Shown: piece after piece, positions 14,137 to 18,715 of the stretch
How the letters are laid out: the number at the start of each line of letters is the position of its first letter
How positions within the stretch are numbered: the first letter of the stretch is position 1
Assembly (NCBI RefSeq): GCF_016234775.1
Contig: NZ_JACRAH010000009.1
Span: forward strand, 62,001 to 126,000
Direction of reading: 5' to 3'
DNA length: 64,000 bases
From: Aquabacterium sp.
GTDB taxonomy: Bacteria; Pseudomonadota; Gammaproteobacteria; Burkholderiales; Burkholderiaceae_C
The notes under the pieces: model-generated
The model's input: only the letters and a program-made list of their open reading frames with translations
The model's database searches: none
Told to the model about the DNA's origin: nothing
Program-made: the position numbers and the translations under genes

Positions 14137-14490
14137 ATGGAAGAAAACACTGTCGTCACATCGCTCGCCGCGCTGGCTCAGCCCTTGCGTTTGCGGATTT
14201 TTCGAGCCCTGGTGGTGGCGGGGCCGCAAGGCTTGACCCCGGGTGATCTGGCGGTCGCGCTGGACGCCGCAGCCACCACGCTGTCTTTTCATCTCAAGGA
14301 ACTCACCCATGCCGGCCTGGTCACCCAGGAGCGGGATGGTCGCCATTTGATCTACCGCGCCGCGTTCGAGCACATGGATGGCCTGTTGGGCTATCTGACC
14401 GAGCACTGCTGCCAGGGGCAGCCTTGTGCGCCAACCGTCGACCCATCCTCTGGCAAGCCTGCGCGCAAGCGGGCTTGCTCCACCTGCTGA
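14137..14490 (+). CDS. arsR: ArsR family metalloregulatory repressor
   Basis: A 117-residue winged-helix repressor. The recognition helix region is LTPGDLAVALDAAATTLSFHLKEL and the wing follows (VTQERDGRHLIYRA). The usual ELCVCDL metal site in the DNA-binding helix is absent. Instead there are C-terminal Cys residues (EHCCQGQPC and ACSTC), as in ArsR variants that sense As(III) or methylarsenite from the C-terminus. It is the first gene of the operon and is probably autoregulated through the promoter dyad. No Shine-Dalgarno sequence precedes the ATG, in line with a leaderless transcript. Confidence 0.92.
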   Translation: MEENTVVTSLAALAQPLRLRIFRALVVAGPQGLTPGDLAVALDAAATTLSFHLKELTHAGLVTQERDGRHLIYRAAFEHMDGLLGYLTEHCCQGQPCAPTVDPSSGKPARKRACSTC

Positions 14491-14501
14491 AGGAGCTCAC
14501 C

Positions 14502-14987
14502 ATGAAGCGTTTCCATGTCCATGTGCATGTCACCGATCTGGCCCAGAACGTTGACTTCTATTCGAAGATGTTTGGCGTGCAGCCAAGCCGCCTTGAAGCT
14601 GACTACGCCAAGTGGATGCTGGACGAGCCCGCGGTGAACTTCGCCATCTCTACGCGTGGTCATGGCCATACAGGCGTCGATCACCTGGGCATCCAGGTTG
14701 ACAACGAGGCAGATCTGCAGGCCATGAAGGCGCAAGCCCAGGCGGCTGACTTGTCCTTGATCGACGAAGGGGCCACCACCTGCTGCTATGCGCGTAGCGA
14801 CAAGCATTGGGTGGTCGATCCACAAGGCTTGCCTTGGGAGCACTTCCAGACGCTGGGCAACATTCCTGTCTTCCGTGAAGGCGAGCCTGCACAAGGCGAT
14901 GAGGCGGGTGCCTGCTGCACCCCCACGGTCGCGCCCAAGGTTACGGGCAAGCCCATCGGCATTCCTGTCAAATCTTCCTGCTGCTGA
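14502..14987 (+). CDS. arsI: ArsI-like C-As lyase
   Basis: A 161-residue vicinal-oxygen-chelate dioxygenase of the ArsI/CadI group. ArsI cleaves the carbon-arsenic bond of trivalent methylarsenicals to give arsenite. Likely iron ligands are His7 in the HVHVHV strand, His61 (VDHLG) and Glu113 (WEHF). The diagnostic Cys pair Cys94-Cys95 (TTCCYA), which binds MAs(III), is present. Two further Cys pairs (138-139 and the C-terminal 160-161) extend beyond the core domain. ATG 14502 has AAGGAG at good spacing and lies 11 bp behind arsR. Its presence suggests the operon handles organic as well as inorganic arsenic. Confidence 0.88.
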   Translation: MKRFHVHVHVTDLAQNVDFYSKMFGVQPSRLEADYAKWMLDEPAVNFAISTRGHGHTGVDHLGIQVDNEADLQAMKAQAQAADLSLIDEGATTCCYARSDKHWVVDPQGLPWEHFQTLGNIPVFREGEPAQGDEAGACCTPTVAPKVTGKPIGIPVKSSCC

Positions 14988-14995
14988 GGTGGATC

Positions 14996-15490
14996 ATGAG
15001 CGAGCAGTTGATGAACGTGCTGTTTGTTTGTACCGGCAACTCGGCGCGGTCGATTCTGGCTGAGGGCATCCTCAACGCATTGGGGGCTAACCGCTTCAAG
15101 GCGTATTCGGCGGGCAGCCATCCCAAAGGCGAGGTTCACCCTATGGCGCTGGATGTGCTGCAGCATCTGGCTATGGCCCAAGAAGGCTATCGCAGCAAAA
15201 GCTGGGACGAGTTTGCGAAGCCCACCTCACCAGCCCTGAGCTTCGTCTTCACTGTCTGCGACAACGCCGCTGGCGAGGTCTGCCCCATATGGCCCGGCCA
15301 GCCTCTGACCGCTCACTGGGGGGTGTACGACCCAGCAGGGGTCGATGGCGAGGAAGCCAAGCAGCGCCGGGCCTTCCATGAGGTTGCGCATATTCTCAAG
15401 CGCCGCATTGAACTGATGCTGGCCTTGCCGCCCGAGAGCCTCCATTCCTTGTCCATTCAGTCCCAACTCAACGCCATCGGCAAAACTTGA
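14996..15490 (+). CDS. arsC: Arsenate reductase, LMW-phosphatase fold
   Basis: A 164-residue arsenate reductase of the low-molecular-weight tyrosine phosphatase fold. The anion loop CTGNSARS begins at Cys12. A second pair of cysteines in FTVCDNAAGEVCP can carry the disulfide relay to thioredoxin or glutaredoxin. The segment GVYDPAG supplies the general-acid Asp region. It lies 8 bp after arsI and its stop meets the next frame. It reduces As(V) to As(III), which the aquaglyceroporin-like protein downstream could let out of the cell. Confidence 0.9.
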   Translation: MSEQLMNVLFVCTGNSARSILAEGILNALGANRFKAYSAGSHPKGEVHPMALDVLQHLAMAQEGYRSKSWDEFAKPTSPALSFVFTVCDNAAGEVCPIWPGQPLTAHWGVYDPAGVDGEEAKQRRAFHEVAHILKRRIELMLALPPESLHSLSIQSQLNAIGKT

Positions 15491-15498
15491 AGTCCGTC

Positions 15499-16002
15499 AT
15501 GACCACTCACGTTCTGATTCTGTGCACACACAACTCCGCCCGCAGCGTGCTCTCTGAAGGCATGCTCAACCATCTGGCCGCCAGGCTGGGCAAGGACGTC
15601 AAGGCGCACAGCGCCGGCAGCGCACCCAGCGGGCGGCTGAACCCCTTTGCCATTGAGGCGCTCAACAACGCAGGCATCGACACGTCCGCCTATCGCAGCA
15701 AGAGCTGGGATGAGTTCAGTGTCGATGGCGCGCCGCCTTTGTCCATCGTCATCACCGTGTGTGACAGCGCCGCCGCCGAAGCCTGCCCCGTGTTCTTCGG
15801 TGGCAAGGGGCAGCCCGTCAAAGTGCATTGGGGCTATCCGGATCCCTCCAATGCCGAAGGCGGCGATGAGGGCAAGCGCCGCGCGTTCGAGCTGACGCGT
15901 CAAGCCATAGGCTACAAGATGCTGCAACTCCTGGCGCTGCCACTCGAGACCATGAGCCAGGACGCCCTGCGTTCTGCTCTGGAGGAGATCGGTCGTGCCT
16001 GA
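15499..16002 (+). CDS. Second arsenate reductase-like phosphatase-fold protein
   Basis: A 167-residue paralog of the preceding ArsC. The anion loop is CTHNSARS, with His in place of the Gly of CTGNSARS. It keeps the downstream Cys pair (ITVCDSAAAEACP) and the acidic loop (WGYPDPSN). ATG 15499 is preferred; a TTG at 15487 that overlaps the previous stop is an alternative. Tandem ArsC copies are common in Burkholderiales ars operons, where one may prefer a different electron donor. The stop overlaps the next start by 8 bases. Confidence 0.85.
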   Translation: MTTHVLILCTHNSARSVLSEGMLNHLAARLGKDVKAHSAGSAPSGRLNPFAIEALNNAGIDTSAYRSKSWDEFSVDGAPPLSIVITVCDSAAAEACPVFFGGKGQPVKVHWGYPDPSNAEGGDEGKRRAFELTRQAIGYKMLQLLALPLETMSQDALRSALEEIGRA

Positions 16003-16687
16003 TCAAGTCAACGCCAGCTCGCCAGCATTGGGGCGCGCACTTCTGGCTGAGGCACTGGGCACCATGCTCCTGCTGGCCATCGTCATCGGCTCGGGCATCA
16101 TGGCTGATCGCCTGTCAGCAGGCAACACCGCCGTTGCCTTGCTGGCTAACACGGCCGCCACGGTTGGCGGGCTCTATATCCTGATTGAGGTGTTCGGCCC
16201 TGTCAGTGGTGCGCATTTCAACCCGGTGGTCTCCCTGGTGATGATGTTGCGCGGCACTTTGCCTCGCTCACACGCGATGGCCTATGTGCCTGTTCAACTG
16301 GCGGCTGCCGTGCTGGGGGCGATGTTGGCCCATGCCATGTTTGATCTGCCACTGCAGCAGATATCGACCAAGCTGCGAACGGGGCAGGGGCAATGGATCG
16401 CGGAGGCCGTGGCCACAGCAGGCCTGTTGCTGGTGATTTTGCGTGCGCCCGCAGGCAAGGCCAGCGCCATGGTGGCCGCCTACATCGGTGCGGCGTACTG
16501 GTTCACCGCATCGACGTCGTTTGCCAACCCAGCAGCCGCTTTTGGGCGCATGATGACCGACACGTTCGCAGGCATTGCGCCCAGCAGCGTGCCCGGCTTC
16601 ATCTGGGCTCAACTGCTGGGTGGCTTGGTGGGTTGGGCTTTGGCTTCCTGGGTGACGCCGTCACAGGCGGCGGCCGCCAAGGTGTGA
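15995..16687 (+). CDS. aqpS: Aquaglyceroporin-like arsenite channel
   Basis: A 230-residue MIP-family channel with six membrane segments. The first half-helix motif is FNPVVS (NPV in place of NPA) and the second is ANPAAAFGR (about residues 178-186). In Sinorhizobium meliloti, AqpS takes the place of ArsB in an ars operon and lets arsenite made by ArsC flow out down its gradient. The same role is inferred here because no arsB or acr3 is present between 14.1 and 18.7 kb. It starts at GTG 15995 inside the second arsC gene. Confidence 0.85.
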   Translation: MPDQVNASSPALGRALLAEALGTMLLLAIVIGSGIMADRLSAGNTAVALLANTAATVGGLYILIEVFGPVSGAHFNPVVSLVMMLRGTLPRSHAMAYVPVQLAAAVLGAMLAHAMFDLPLQQISTKLRTGQGQWIAEAVATAGLLLVILRAPAGKASAMVAAYIGAAYWFTASTSFANPAAAFGRMMTDTFAGIAPSSVPGFIWAQLLGGLVGWALASWVTPSQAAAAKV

Positions 16688-16723
16688 GTCAGGCAAGTTT
16701 GGGTCAAGCGATGGAGGTTCCGC

Positions 16724-18715
16724 ATGAAGGTCACGGTTCTAGGCCGGGGGTGTAGCAAATGCCACCTGACGGTCGAGATGATCGAGCGAGAAGCGAAAGC
16801 GATGGGTGTGGCCGTTGAGGTGGTCAAGATCGAGGCACCCGAAGAGATCATGCGTCTGGGCGTGAAAGCCACGCCCGCCGTGATGATCGGAGGGCAGATC
16901 GTTCACAGTGGCGGCCTGCCTGCTCATGAAAAAGTGCAGAGCTGGCTGGCACCTCCGTTGCTGGGTTTTCTGCGCGAACCGACCAGGCACCTGTTTTTCA
17001 CGGGCAAGGGCGGCGTGGGCAAAACCTCTTTGTCGACGGCCACGGCCTTGACACTGGCCGATACCGGCAAGAAGGTGCTGCTGGTCAGCACCGATGCCGC
17101 TTCCAATCTGGACGAGATGCTGGGCATCGAGCTGCGCAATGTGCCGGTAGCGGTGCCTGGTGCCCCGGGCCTGTCGGTTCTCAACATCGATCCTGACGTG
17201 GCGGCAGAGACTTACCGGCAGCGCGTGTTGGCGCAGATGGCCGATCACACCACGGAGGCCGAGCGGGCCACGGTGCGAGAGCAATTGTCCGGTTCCTGCA
17301 CCACCGAGATCGCGTCGTTTGACGAGTTCTCCAACCTGCTGGCGGGTGCCGCGGCTGACTACGATCACATCGTGTTTGACACGGCGCCTACCGGGCACAC
17401 CTTGCGGCTGCTGAGCTTGCCCAAGGCCTGGAGCGGCTTCCTCAAGGGCAACGATCGAGGCGCGTCCTGCCTGGGCCCCCACTCGGGCTTGAAGATGCAG
17501 GAGACCCGCTTCAATGCGGCCTTGAAGGCCTTGTGCGACGAGACCCTTACGACGATCGTGCTGGTGGCGCGCGCCGACCGCAGCGCGCTGTCCGAGGCGG
17601 CGCGAACGTCCGACGAGTTGCGCGTGCTGGGATTGAACCAGCAGCAACTGGTGATCAACGGGCTGTTCAAGGCGAGCGATCCACACGATGAAGTAGCCAA
17701 AGCCATCGAGGCCCTGGGACAGCATGCGCTGGATGCCATGCCCGATGCCTTGCGTGCCTTGCCCCAATCCATCGTGCCATTGCGTGCATTTGATACCGTG
17801 GGCCTGCCCGCCTTGCGTGCGCTGTTGAACCCGACCGCAGCGCAGCCCGCAACCCTCACCACGGCGGGTGAAGAGGCGCACCTGCCATCCGATCACATCG
17901 ACAAACTCGTGGATGAACTGGCCGCTGCGGGGCGAGGCCTGATCATGGTGATGGGCAAGGGCGGGGTCGGCAAGACCACCATCGCCGCGGCACTGGCGAT
18001 CGGTCTCGTGAAGAAGGGCCATGCGGTGCATCTGAGCACCACCGATCCCGCTGCGCATCTGGCCATGACGCTGGAAGGCGAGTTGCCCGGCCTGCAACTG
18101 GGTCGCATTGATCCCAAGGTGGAAACGCAGCGCTATATCGACAAGATCATGGCCGCGCGTGGGCCTCGTCTGGATGCTCAGGAACGTGCGCTGCTGCTGG
18201 AGGATCTGCAGTCGCCTTGCACGGAAGAGGTGGCGGTGTTTCATGCGTTCTCGCGCACGGTCAGCGAAGCGCGCAGTGCCTTCGTGGTGCTGGATACCGC
18301 GCCCACCGGGCATTCGCTCTTGTTGATGGATGCCACCGGGGCTTATCACCGGCAGATGACACGCGAGTTTGAAGGCAAGGCCGCTGTGCACATGGTCACG
18401 CCCCTGATGCGCCTGCAGGACGCGAGTTACACCCGCATCATCCTGGTTACCTTGCCGGAGGTGACGCCAGTCTCGCAAGCCGCGGCCTTGCAGGATGACT
18501 TGCGGCGCGCGCACATCGAGCCCTATGCCTGGGTGGTCAACAAATCCATCCTGGCCGCTGGCACGCATGATCCTTTGCTGCAAGCCAGGCTGGCAGGCGA
18601 GCGCCGGCAGATGGCGCGATTGAGCGGTGGGCTGGCGCACAAGACCTTTGCCGTGCCTTGGTTGCCTCAAGCGCCCGTCGGGCTGACGGCCTTGTCCGCG
18701 CTGCTGGCGTCCTGA
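16724..18715 (+). CDS. arsA: Thioredoxin-like domain fused to ArsA ATPase
   Basis: A 663-residue fusion. Residues 1-77 form a small thioredoxin-like domain of the redox-active disulfide protein 2 type, with CSKC at 10-13 and the cis-proline TPAVMIGG. The rest is a two-half ArsA: P-loops GKGGVGKT at 94-101 and 411-418, and DTAPTGH at 219-225 and 524-530. Three cysteines match the E. coli ArsA metalloid site (Cys192 in SCTTEI, Cys249 in ASCLGP, Cys499 in SPCTEE). ArsA normally powers ArsB or Acr3 and receives As(III) from ArsD, yet none of these is encoded in the operon. The fused domain may replace ArsD or reduce the ATPase. It lies 36 bp after the channel gene. Confidence 0.92.
   Translation: MKVTVLGRGCSKCHLTVEMIEREAKAMGVAVEVVKIEAPEEIMRLGVKATPAVMIGGQIVHSGGLPAHEKVQSWLAPPLLGFLREPTRHLFFTGKGGVGKTSLSTATALTLADTGKKVLLVSTDAASNLDEMLGIELRNVPVAVPGAPGLSVLNIDPDVAAETYRQRVLAQMADHTTEAERATVREQLSGSCTTEIASFDEFSNLLAGAAADYDHIVFDTAPTGHTLRLLSLPKAWSGFLKGNDRGASCLGPHSGLKMQETRFNAALKALCDETLTTIVLVARADRSALSEAARTSDELRVLGLNQQQLVINGLFKASDPHDEVAKAIEALGQHALDAMPDALRALPQSIVPLRAFDTVGLPALRALLNPTAAQPATLTTAGEEAHLPSDHIDKLVDELAAAGRGLIMVMGKGGVGKTTIAAALAIGLVKKGHAVHLSTTDPAAHLAMTLEGELPGLQLGRIDPKVETQRYIDKIMAARGPRLDAQERALLLEDLQSPCTEEVAVFHAFSRTVSEARSAFVVLDTAPTGHSLLLMDATGAYHRQMTREFEGKAAVHMVTPLMRLQDASYTRIILVTLPEVTPVSQAAALQDDLRRAHIEPYAWVVNKSILAAGTHDPLLQARLAGERRQMARLSGGLAHKTFAVPWLPQAPVGLTALSALLAS

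Follow-up and report, generated by a model that had tools for sequence, protein, structure and literature searches.

A thioredoxin (Trx)-like domain and a complete ArsA ATPase are joined in one chain by a 663-codon open frame (16724-18715, + strand) in the window, that is, in the 64,000-nucleotide stretch of Aquabacterium sp. DNA analysed here, and the same fusion was recovered in other Burkholderiales. The Trx-ArsA fusion is real and apparently undescribed. We tentatively favour, ahead of three rival explanations, a function in which the domain is a tethered dithiol acceptor of metalloid that would feed ArsA.

No description of the fusion was found in the open-licence literature, and a description elsewhere is possible. 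It is not named in the accessible portions of PMC2963123, PMC6205960, PMC6514093 and PMC13381914, and within the literature so covered the statement of the initial annotation that no role is described for the fusion holds.

The fused gene and its junction

The gene starts with ATG, and GGAGG stands six bases 5' of it; the stop-free frame has 675 codons and extends just 12 codons beyond this ATG on the upstream side. Its parts are as follows.

16713 to 16717, + strand: Shine-Dalgarno-like GGAGG of the fused gene (from the sequence)
16724 to 16954, + strand: N-terminal Trx-like domain (MTH895/ArsE family, Thioredoxin_3), residues 1-77 (from profiles and AlphaFold2 model)
16955 to 16963, + strand: short linker, residues 78-80, differing in length between relatives
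16964 to 18712, + strand: complete two-half ArsA ATPase, residues 81-663 (from profile and motifs)

The initial annotation had proposed such a fusion, and it is confirmed by the single 663-residue frame with both parts above curated cut-offs. The proposed extent of the Trx domain (residues 1-77) was also right, but its end had been placed at 16955 instead of 16954, and the P-loop does not follow directly, since a linker lies between and ArsA begins at about residue 81.

A sequencing frameshift can be excluded because the same junction recurs in 27 distinct fused genes. The junction of the window gene holds one TTG (residue 79), and 5 of the 11 fused genes examined first have no in-frame ATG, GTG or TTG at this site; there is no conserved start site separating the Trx and ArsA parts. 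Mis-assembly and a separate start are likewise ruled out by the 27 genes and the junction codons. The AlphaFold2 model of the whole chain has a mean pLDDT of 81.5, and its best structural matches are ArsA structures.

The thioredoxin-like domain

Residues 1-75 match PF13192 (Thioredoxin_3; E 6.8e-21, 74.5 bits for the domain alone, cut-off 24.8), and TIGR00412 (MTH895/ArsE) scores 69.6 bits with the domain alone and 64.3 bits in the whole protein (cut-off 62), by which a chance Trx-like motif is ruled out. The score, the CxxC motif (C10/C13) and the predicted Trx fold are those of TIGR00412 members; with the classical thioredoxin model TIGR01068 the domain reaches 13.3 bits against a cut-off of 96.8. 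The fetched relatives from the MTH895/ArsE family, which resemble the domain in these same respects, are for the most part small free-standing proteins whose gene usually adjoins that of a permease, whereas the window domain is fused. As had been noticed initially, the active-site motif is CSKC (residues 10-13) and the expected cis-Pro loop is present (T50-P51). Modelled alone by AlphaFold2 (pLDDT 92.1) the domain is predicted to adopt a Trx fold; its best PDB match is 1ilo, MTH895 (TMq 0.70), with thioredoxins next, and the ArsD structures 3mwh and 3kgk follow at ranks 35 and 44 (TMq 0.60). The structure search with this model thus places the predicted fold nearest to MTH895 and to true thioredoxins, with ArsD more distant.

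Of the 27 fused genes, 25 encode CSKC and one each CSQC and CSQG, so that both cysteines are present in 26. Thirty columns are invariant among the first 11 fused domains, and the CSKC and TPAV columns are near-invariant. The median dN/dS (Nei-Gojobori type; 11 sequences, 55 pairs) was 0.17 for the Trx part, with finite dS in 52 pairs, and 0.125 for the ArsA part, with finite dS in 54; judged by these ratios, the Trx domain is under purifying selection. The CSQG carrier (G731, L197 8178-8408) is a natural single-cysteine variant, in which the second cysteine is absent.

The ArsA part

TIGR04291 (ArsA) matches residues 86-648 with 714.5 bits (cut-off 650), over model positions 2-563 of 565. The P-loops lie at residues 94-101 (GKGGVGKT, 17003-17026) and 411-418, and alignment to 9nbl places the metalloid-site cysteines at 192, 249 and 499, which we take to be the equivalents of C113, C172 and C422 of R773 ArsA. 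Two P-loops and three metalloid cysteines thus mark the protein as an ArsA, and the two-half architecture, both P-loops, both DTAPTGH motifs and the three cysteines are common to it, R773 ArsA (1f48) and Leptospirillum ArsA (9nbl); identity to ArsA 9nbw is 49% over the Foldseek alignment. From canonical ArsA it differs by the additional 77-residue N-terminal Trx domain, by the score (787-910 bits for canonical proteins versus 694-734 for the group of the window protein), and by a genome without ArsD and without detectable Acr3 or ArsB. Both P-loops are kept in 26 of 26 fused ArsA rows, as are cysteines 192 and 249; cysteine 499 is kept in all 25 rows reaching it.

These cysteines bear on a redox switch or thiol guard, in which the domain would keep the metalloid cysteines of ArsA reduced, or shut ArsA off when oxidised. 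Such a role would suit a redox motif joined directly to a thiol-dependent ATPase, with both motif cysteines kept in all but one of the 27 carriers, but unfused relatives of the same ArsA group keep the same three ArsA cysteines without the domain (12 of 12 rows), and we consider the switch improbable.

Distribution and origin of the fusion

ArsA was found above cut-off in 23 of 61 genomes (the own genome and its relatives), and six of these carry the fusion (G000, which is the genome of the window, G003, G004, G007, G009 and G031). A scan of named genomes gave 67 loci, 10 of them N-terminal fusions, including the isolate Pandoraea communis LMG 31110, a Leptothrix MAG and a Polaromonas MAG; five of the 10 are contigs of genus genomes already counted, and PBB1 is G530. 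In the family sample 65 of 399 genomes matched the fused-domain profile (E 1e-15), and in 18, G000 included, the domain was confirmed to be joined to ArsA; in the order sample 61 of 399 matched and at least two were confirmed as fused (G000, G300). The search for other Trx-ArsA fusions that the initial annotation had suggested thus led to a total of 27 distinct fused genes, each from a different genome to judge by contig names and lengths, where the contig of G813 stops after the ArsA P-loop and G816 is without the last part. No relative was found among the viral contigs searched with the ArsA part. On plasmids, the first 130 residues matched 131 records, one of which (Ideonella) covers at least 80% of the query; the full protein matched 2105 records, and among the 60 matches listed none starts before residue 24.

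In the ArsA tree (built without L050, L111 and L120) all fused rows fall in one 31-row clade with support 98/98, composed of 26 fused and 5 unfused rows, and the fused/unfused label needs 4 changes. In the Trx tree, which has few columns, 27 of 27 fused domains stand on one side of a branch with SH-aLRT 94. On the simplest account of these trees, the two parts would have been joined once in Burkholderiales and the Trx part lost again on three occasions, this direction being our reading of the sequences. The putative loss lineages are G027, G010 with G026, and G015 with G034. In G027 a relic of 26 residues matches the start of the domain (E 3e-4), lacks the first active-site cysteine and is followed in frame by ArsA; upstream of the four remaining unfused ArsAs in that clade no convincing relic was seen (best E 0.025). 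Outside the clade, the Ideonella plasmid has the order permease - trx - arsA, with trx and arsA as separate genes 7 bases apart, which is possibly the gene order that preceded the fusion.

ArsD in the carriers of the fusion

ArsD was missing genome-wide in 22 of the 23 fused genomes searched (6/6 plus 16/17), a count that leaves out four carriers (Leptothrix, Pandoraea, L062 and Polaromonas); the one searched carrier with ArsD, G807, has it on a contig other than that of the fusion. Among the 23 ArsA genomes, ArsD occurs in seven, exactly those with high-scoring canonical ArsA, and beside arsA in each, and it is absent from all 16 searched genomes that have only the second ArsA group (6 fused, 10 unfused). 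Lack of ArsD characterises this ArsA group, with hardly an exception among its fused members, and it does not track the fusion, because the 10 unfused-only genomes of the same group are also without ArsD. For the same reason ArsD was not displaced by the fusion alone, and the proposal that the fusion replaced it is weakened; the absence fits a substitute for ArsD without proving one.

The domain itself is not an ArsD: PF06953 matched neither the domain (E 0.1) nor any protein of the G000 genome (E 0.001), and the invariant C12, C13 and C18 of the ArsD set A3 are represented in the fused domain by C10 and C13 only, so that the CC..C cysteine set is missing. As a relative in fold, ArsD had been rightly named in the initial annotation, since 3mwh and 3kgk are among the matches of the model and the profile comparison points the same way. 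In hhalign, residues 19-76 align with ArsD at a probability of 90.7% and the free family aligns with ArsD at 93.5% over 34 columns, both alignments being shallow, with the cysteine loops unaligned and no unrelated-Trx control. According to the accessible part of PMC3091736, d1iloa (MTH895) is the top SCOP hit of ArsD. The window domain therefore shares with ArsD (3mwh, 3kgk) the Trx fold, as predicted, a related C-terminal half and the position directly before ArsA, and differs from it by the lack of the CC..C set and of a PF06953 match and by the covalent joining to ArsA.

The operon in the window and the undetected permease

The fused gene closes a same-strand run arsR - arsI - arsC - arsC - MIP channel - trx::arsA (14137-18715), the other genes of which are the following.

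14137 to 14490, + strand: arsR-type repressor, first gene of the operon (NF033788, 65.4 bits, cut-off 55)
14499 to 14987, + strand: arsI/cadI-type VOC protein (NF041414, 134 bits, cut-off 116)
14996 to 15490, + strand: arsC copy 1, arsenate-reductase-like LMW-PTP, cysteines 12/88/96 (PF01451; TIGR02691 65 bits, below the equivalog cut-off of 174.3)
15502 to 16002, + strand: arsC copy 2, arsenate-reductase-like LMW-PTP, cysteines 8/87/95 (PF01451; TIGR02691 66.8 bits, below the same cut-off)
15995 to 16687, + strand: MIP-family channel, aquaporin/aquaglyceroporin type (PF00230, 69.1 bits, cut-off 25)

By synteny, the MIP channel gene occupies the place of the acr3 of relatives, and it does so in the operons of G000, G004 and G007 (window 15995-16687; L034 12080-12781; L035 6233-6931), in whose genomes neither Acr3 nor ArsB was detected. 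In the genome of the window, which is 94.7% complete, so that a missing contig is possible, Acr3, ArsB, ArsP_1 and ArsD were undetected, and the ArsB/Acr3 partner permease of an ArsA was thus not found. With no pump gene detected in the genome of this operon, the question arises what ArsA does without ArsB or Acr3. An aquaglyceroporin, AqpS, stands in place of ArsB in the ars operon of Sinorhizobium, as described in the accessible part of PMC6205960. From the three operons that have a channel in genomes where Acr3 and ArsB were undetected we have drawn, for the lineage of the window, an ATP-assisted relay, in which the Trx dithiol would take As(III) from ArsC and pass it to ArsA, and ArsA would deliver it to the MIP channel; we regard it as a long shot.

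SBF is the wider family that contains Acr3. On the contig of the window (C63, 36507-37045), about 25 kb before the window, an SBF-family transporter match falls in two frames and is possibly a broken gene; the Acr3 model gives no match there.

Gene neighbourhoods and the rival explanations

Stretches of 3.3 to 20 kb were examined around the 27 fused genes. An arsC, acr3, arsH, arsI, arsR or channel gene is present in 13 of them, acr3 in 10 and a MIP channel in 3, never both in one stretch; among the six fused genus genomes, two have Acr3. The remaining 14 loci include L195, with a weak ArsR-like match, and L033, L056 and L183, which carry a block permease - trx - 424-residue protein; G031 (L033) has an acr3 some 8 kb upstream. 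Around the unfused ArsAs of the same group (L037, L038, L041-L045 and L047) no ars gene was found in the stretches examined.

For the free relatives of the domain, 98 loci were collected by scans with the fused domain, a sample that leans to closer relatives, includes many short stretches and contains L120. An ArsP/SaoE-type permease lies within 1.3 kb on the same strand in 69 of the 98; any arsC is near 11, in 8 of these together with the permease, acr3 is near 9 and arsA near 3. This permease company suggests, as far as gene order can tell, that the free relatives work with a transport step. Direct links of the family to arsA were also met: in Aquisphaera insulae (L120 1770-3797) the frame of ArsA reads on at its C-terminal end into a member that has an internal Met, with arsD upstream, and this would be an independent fusion should that frame be correct; in Pirellulaceae a member is directly downstream of arsA, and in Muribaculaceae one is upstream of arsD-arsA. 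Aquisphaera and Muribaculaceae thus have both ArsD and a Trx family member.

It should be considered whether the domain is an electron donor, that is, a tethered reductant that would recycle the LMW-PTP-type ArsC (and perhaps ArsI or ArsH) and place arsenate reduction beside ArsA, with As(III) released at the pump. CSKC with a cis-Pro is the standard redox equipment, the three cysteines are kept in both ArsCs of the window (12/88/96 and 8/87/95), and the model matches thioredoxins including the Trx of the Trx-ArsC complex 2ipa, a likeness general to the fold. Furthermore, Castillo and Saier (2010; PMC2963123, accessible part) described redox-active disulfide protein 2, by its name the MTH895/ArsE-type family, as a separate ars-operon gene for which service in ArsC reduction was proposed, and reported arsC in 7 of 8 operons with redox genes. 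Against such a donor stand the free relatives, near any arsC in far fewer loci than near the permease (11 versus 69 of 98), the 14 of 27 fused loci with no arsC, acr3, arsH, arsI or channel gene in their 3.3 to 20 kb, the one carrier with CSQG, and the consideration that fusion to ArsA is unnecessary for ArsC reduction. Metalloid hand-off is favoured over the ArsC reductant because the free relatives mostly adjoin the permease and less often arsC; the donor is, in our judgement, unlikely.

The permease company could also mean that the domain merely anchors ArsA to an ArsP-type permease, to Acr3 or to the MIP channel, or that it is simply carried along with the gene order. The 69 of 98 loci, the consecutive permease-trx-arsA of Ideonella, the apparent losses and the truncated relic of G027 speak for docking or a relic; the signs of purifying selection, the near-invariant CSKC and TPAV columns and an ArsP_1 permease undetected in the genome of the window speak against it, and we hold it to be improbable as well.

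A proposed route of the metalloid

In the favoured reading, a free MTH895/ArsE-type protein would have become attached to the N-terminus of an ArsA subclade in Burkholderiales, most simply in a single event. The reduced CSKC dithiol would bind As(III) or a trivalent organoarsenical, coming from ArsC, glutathione or the cytosol, and would hand it on to the metalloid site, with its three cysteines, of the attached ArsA; tethering would do for ArsA what ArsD does in trans. We infer the binding, the hand-off, its direction and its coupling to ArsA from the cysteines kept in 26 of 27 genes, the low dN/dS, the conserved ArsA cysteines, the missing ArsD and the kinship with ArsD, and additionally from the other links of the family to arsA in Aquisphaera insulae, Pirellulaceae, Muribaculaceae and the Ideonella plasmid. 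The hand-off is weakened by the two cysteines in place of the three of ArsD, by a cysteine loop outside the profile match and by a predicted fold nearer to MTH895 and thioredoxins; by the presence of ArsD as well as Trx in G807, Aquisphaera and Muribaculaceae; by three lineages which apparently lost the domain yet kept ArsA and by G731, without the second cysteine; and by the low number of free relatives near arsA (3 of 98). The built-in chaperone suggested in the initial annotation accordingly stands in part: ArsD missing from 22 of 23 fused genomes and the position before ArsA agree with it, but the unfused-only genomes are also without ArsD and CC..C is absent.

If a tethered dithiol feeds ArsA, the fusion would be a single-chain counterpart of the ArsD-ArsA pair, in which the transfer of a metalloid from a Trx fold to an ATPase could readily be studied. 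Through Trx-ArsA, ArsD is also connected with the MTH895 family, for which a part in ars operons was found only as a proposal. Like other ars fusions in the literature, among them ArsR-ArsC and AqpS-ArsC (PMC6205960) and Acr3-ArsC (PMC6514093) according to the accessible parts of these sources, Trx-ArsA combines neighbouring ars functions in one chain.

Other recurrent genes near the fusion

A protein of about 424-434 residues recurs among the loci (L032 8404-9657, L033 1736-3040, L034 9663-10937, L039, L049, L050, L056, L066 and L183); no Pfam family was matched above cut-off by three members, one having a weak CP_ATPgrasp_2 match, and no NCBIfam family by two. In the ars clusters of L033 (1-1745), L049 (2442-4393) and L054 (7305-9225), a sigma-70-type factor gene recurs in a block with those of an ArsP/SaoE-type permease and a free Trx. 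In L186 (6613-7637) the acr3 beside the fused arsA matches in two frames and is possibly a broken gene or a sequence error. Three loci, L033 (4644-7001), L056 (5572-7932) and L183 (6020-8380), have the gene of a ZntA-like heavy-metal P-type ATPase immediately upstream of the fused one, and partial ZntA-like P-type ATPase matches were seen in L058 and L194.
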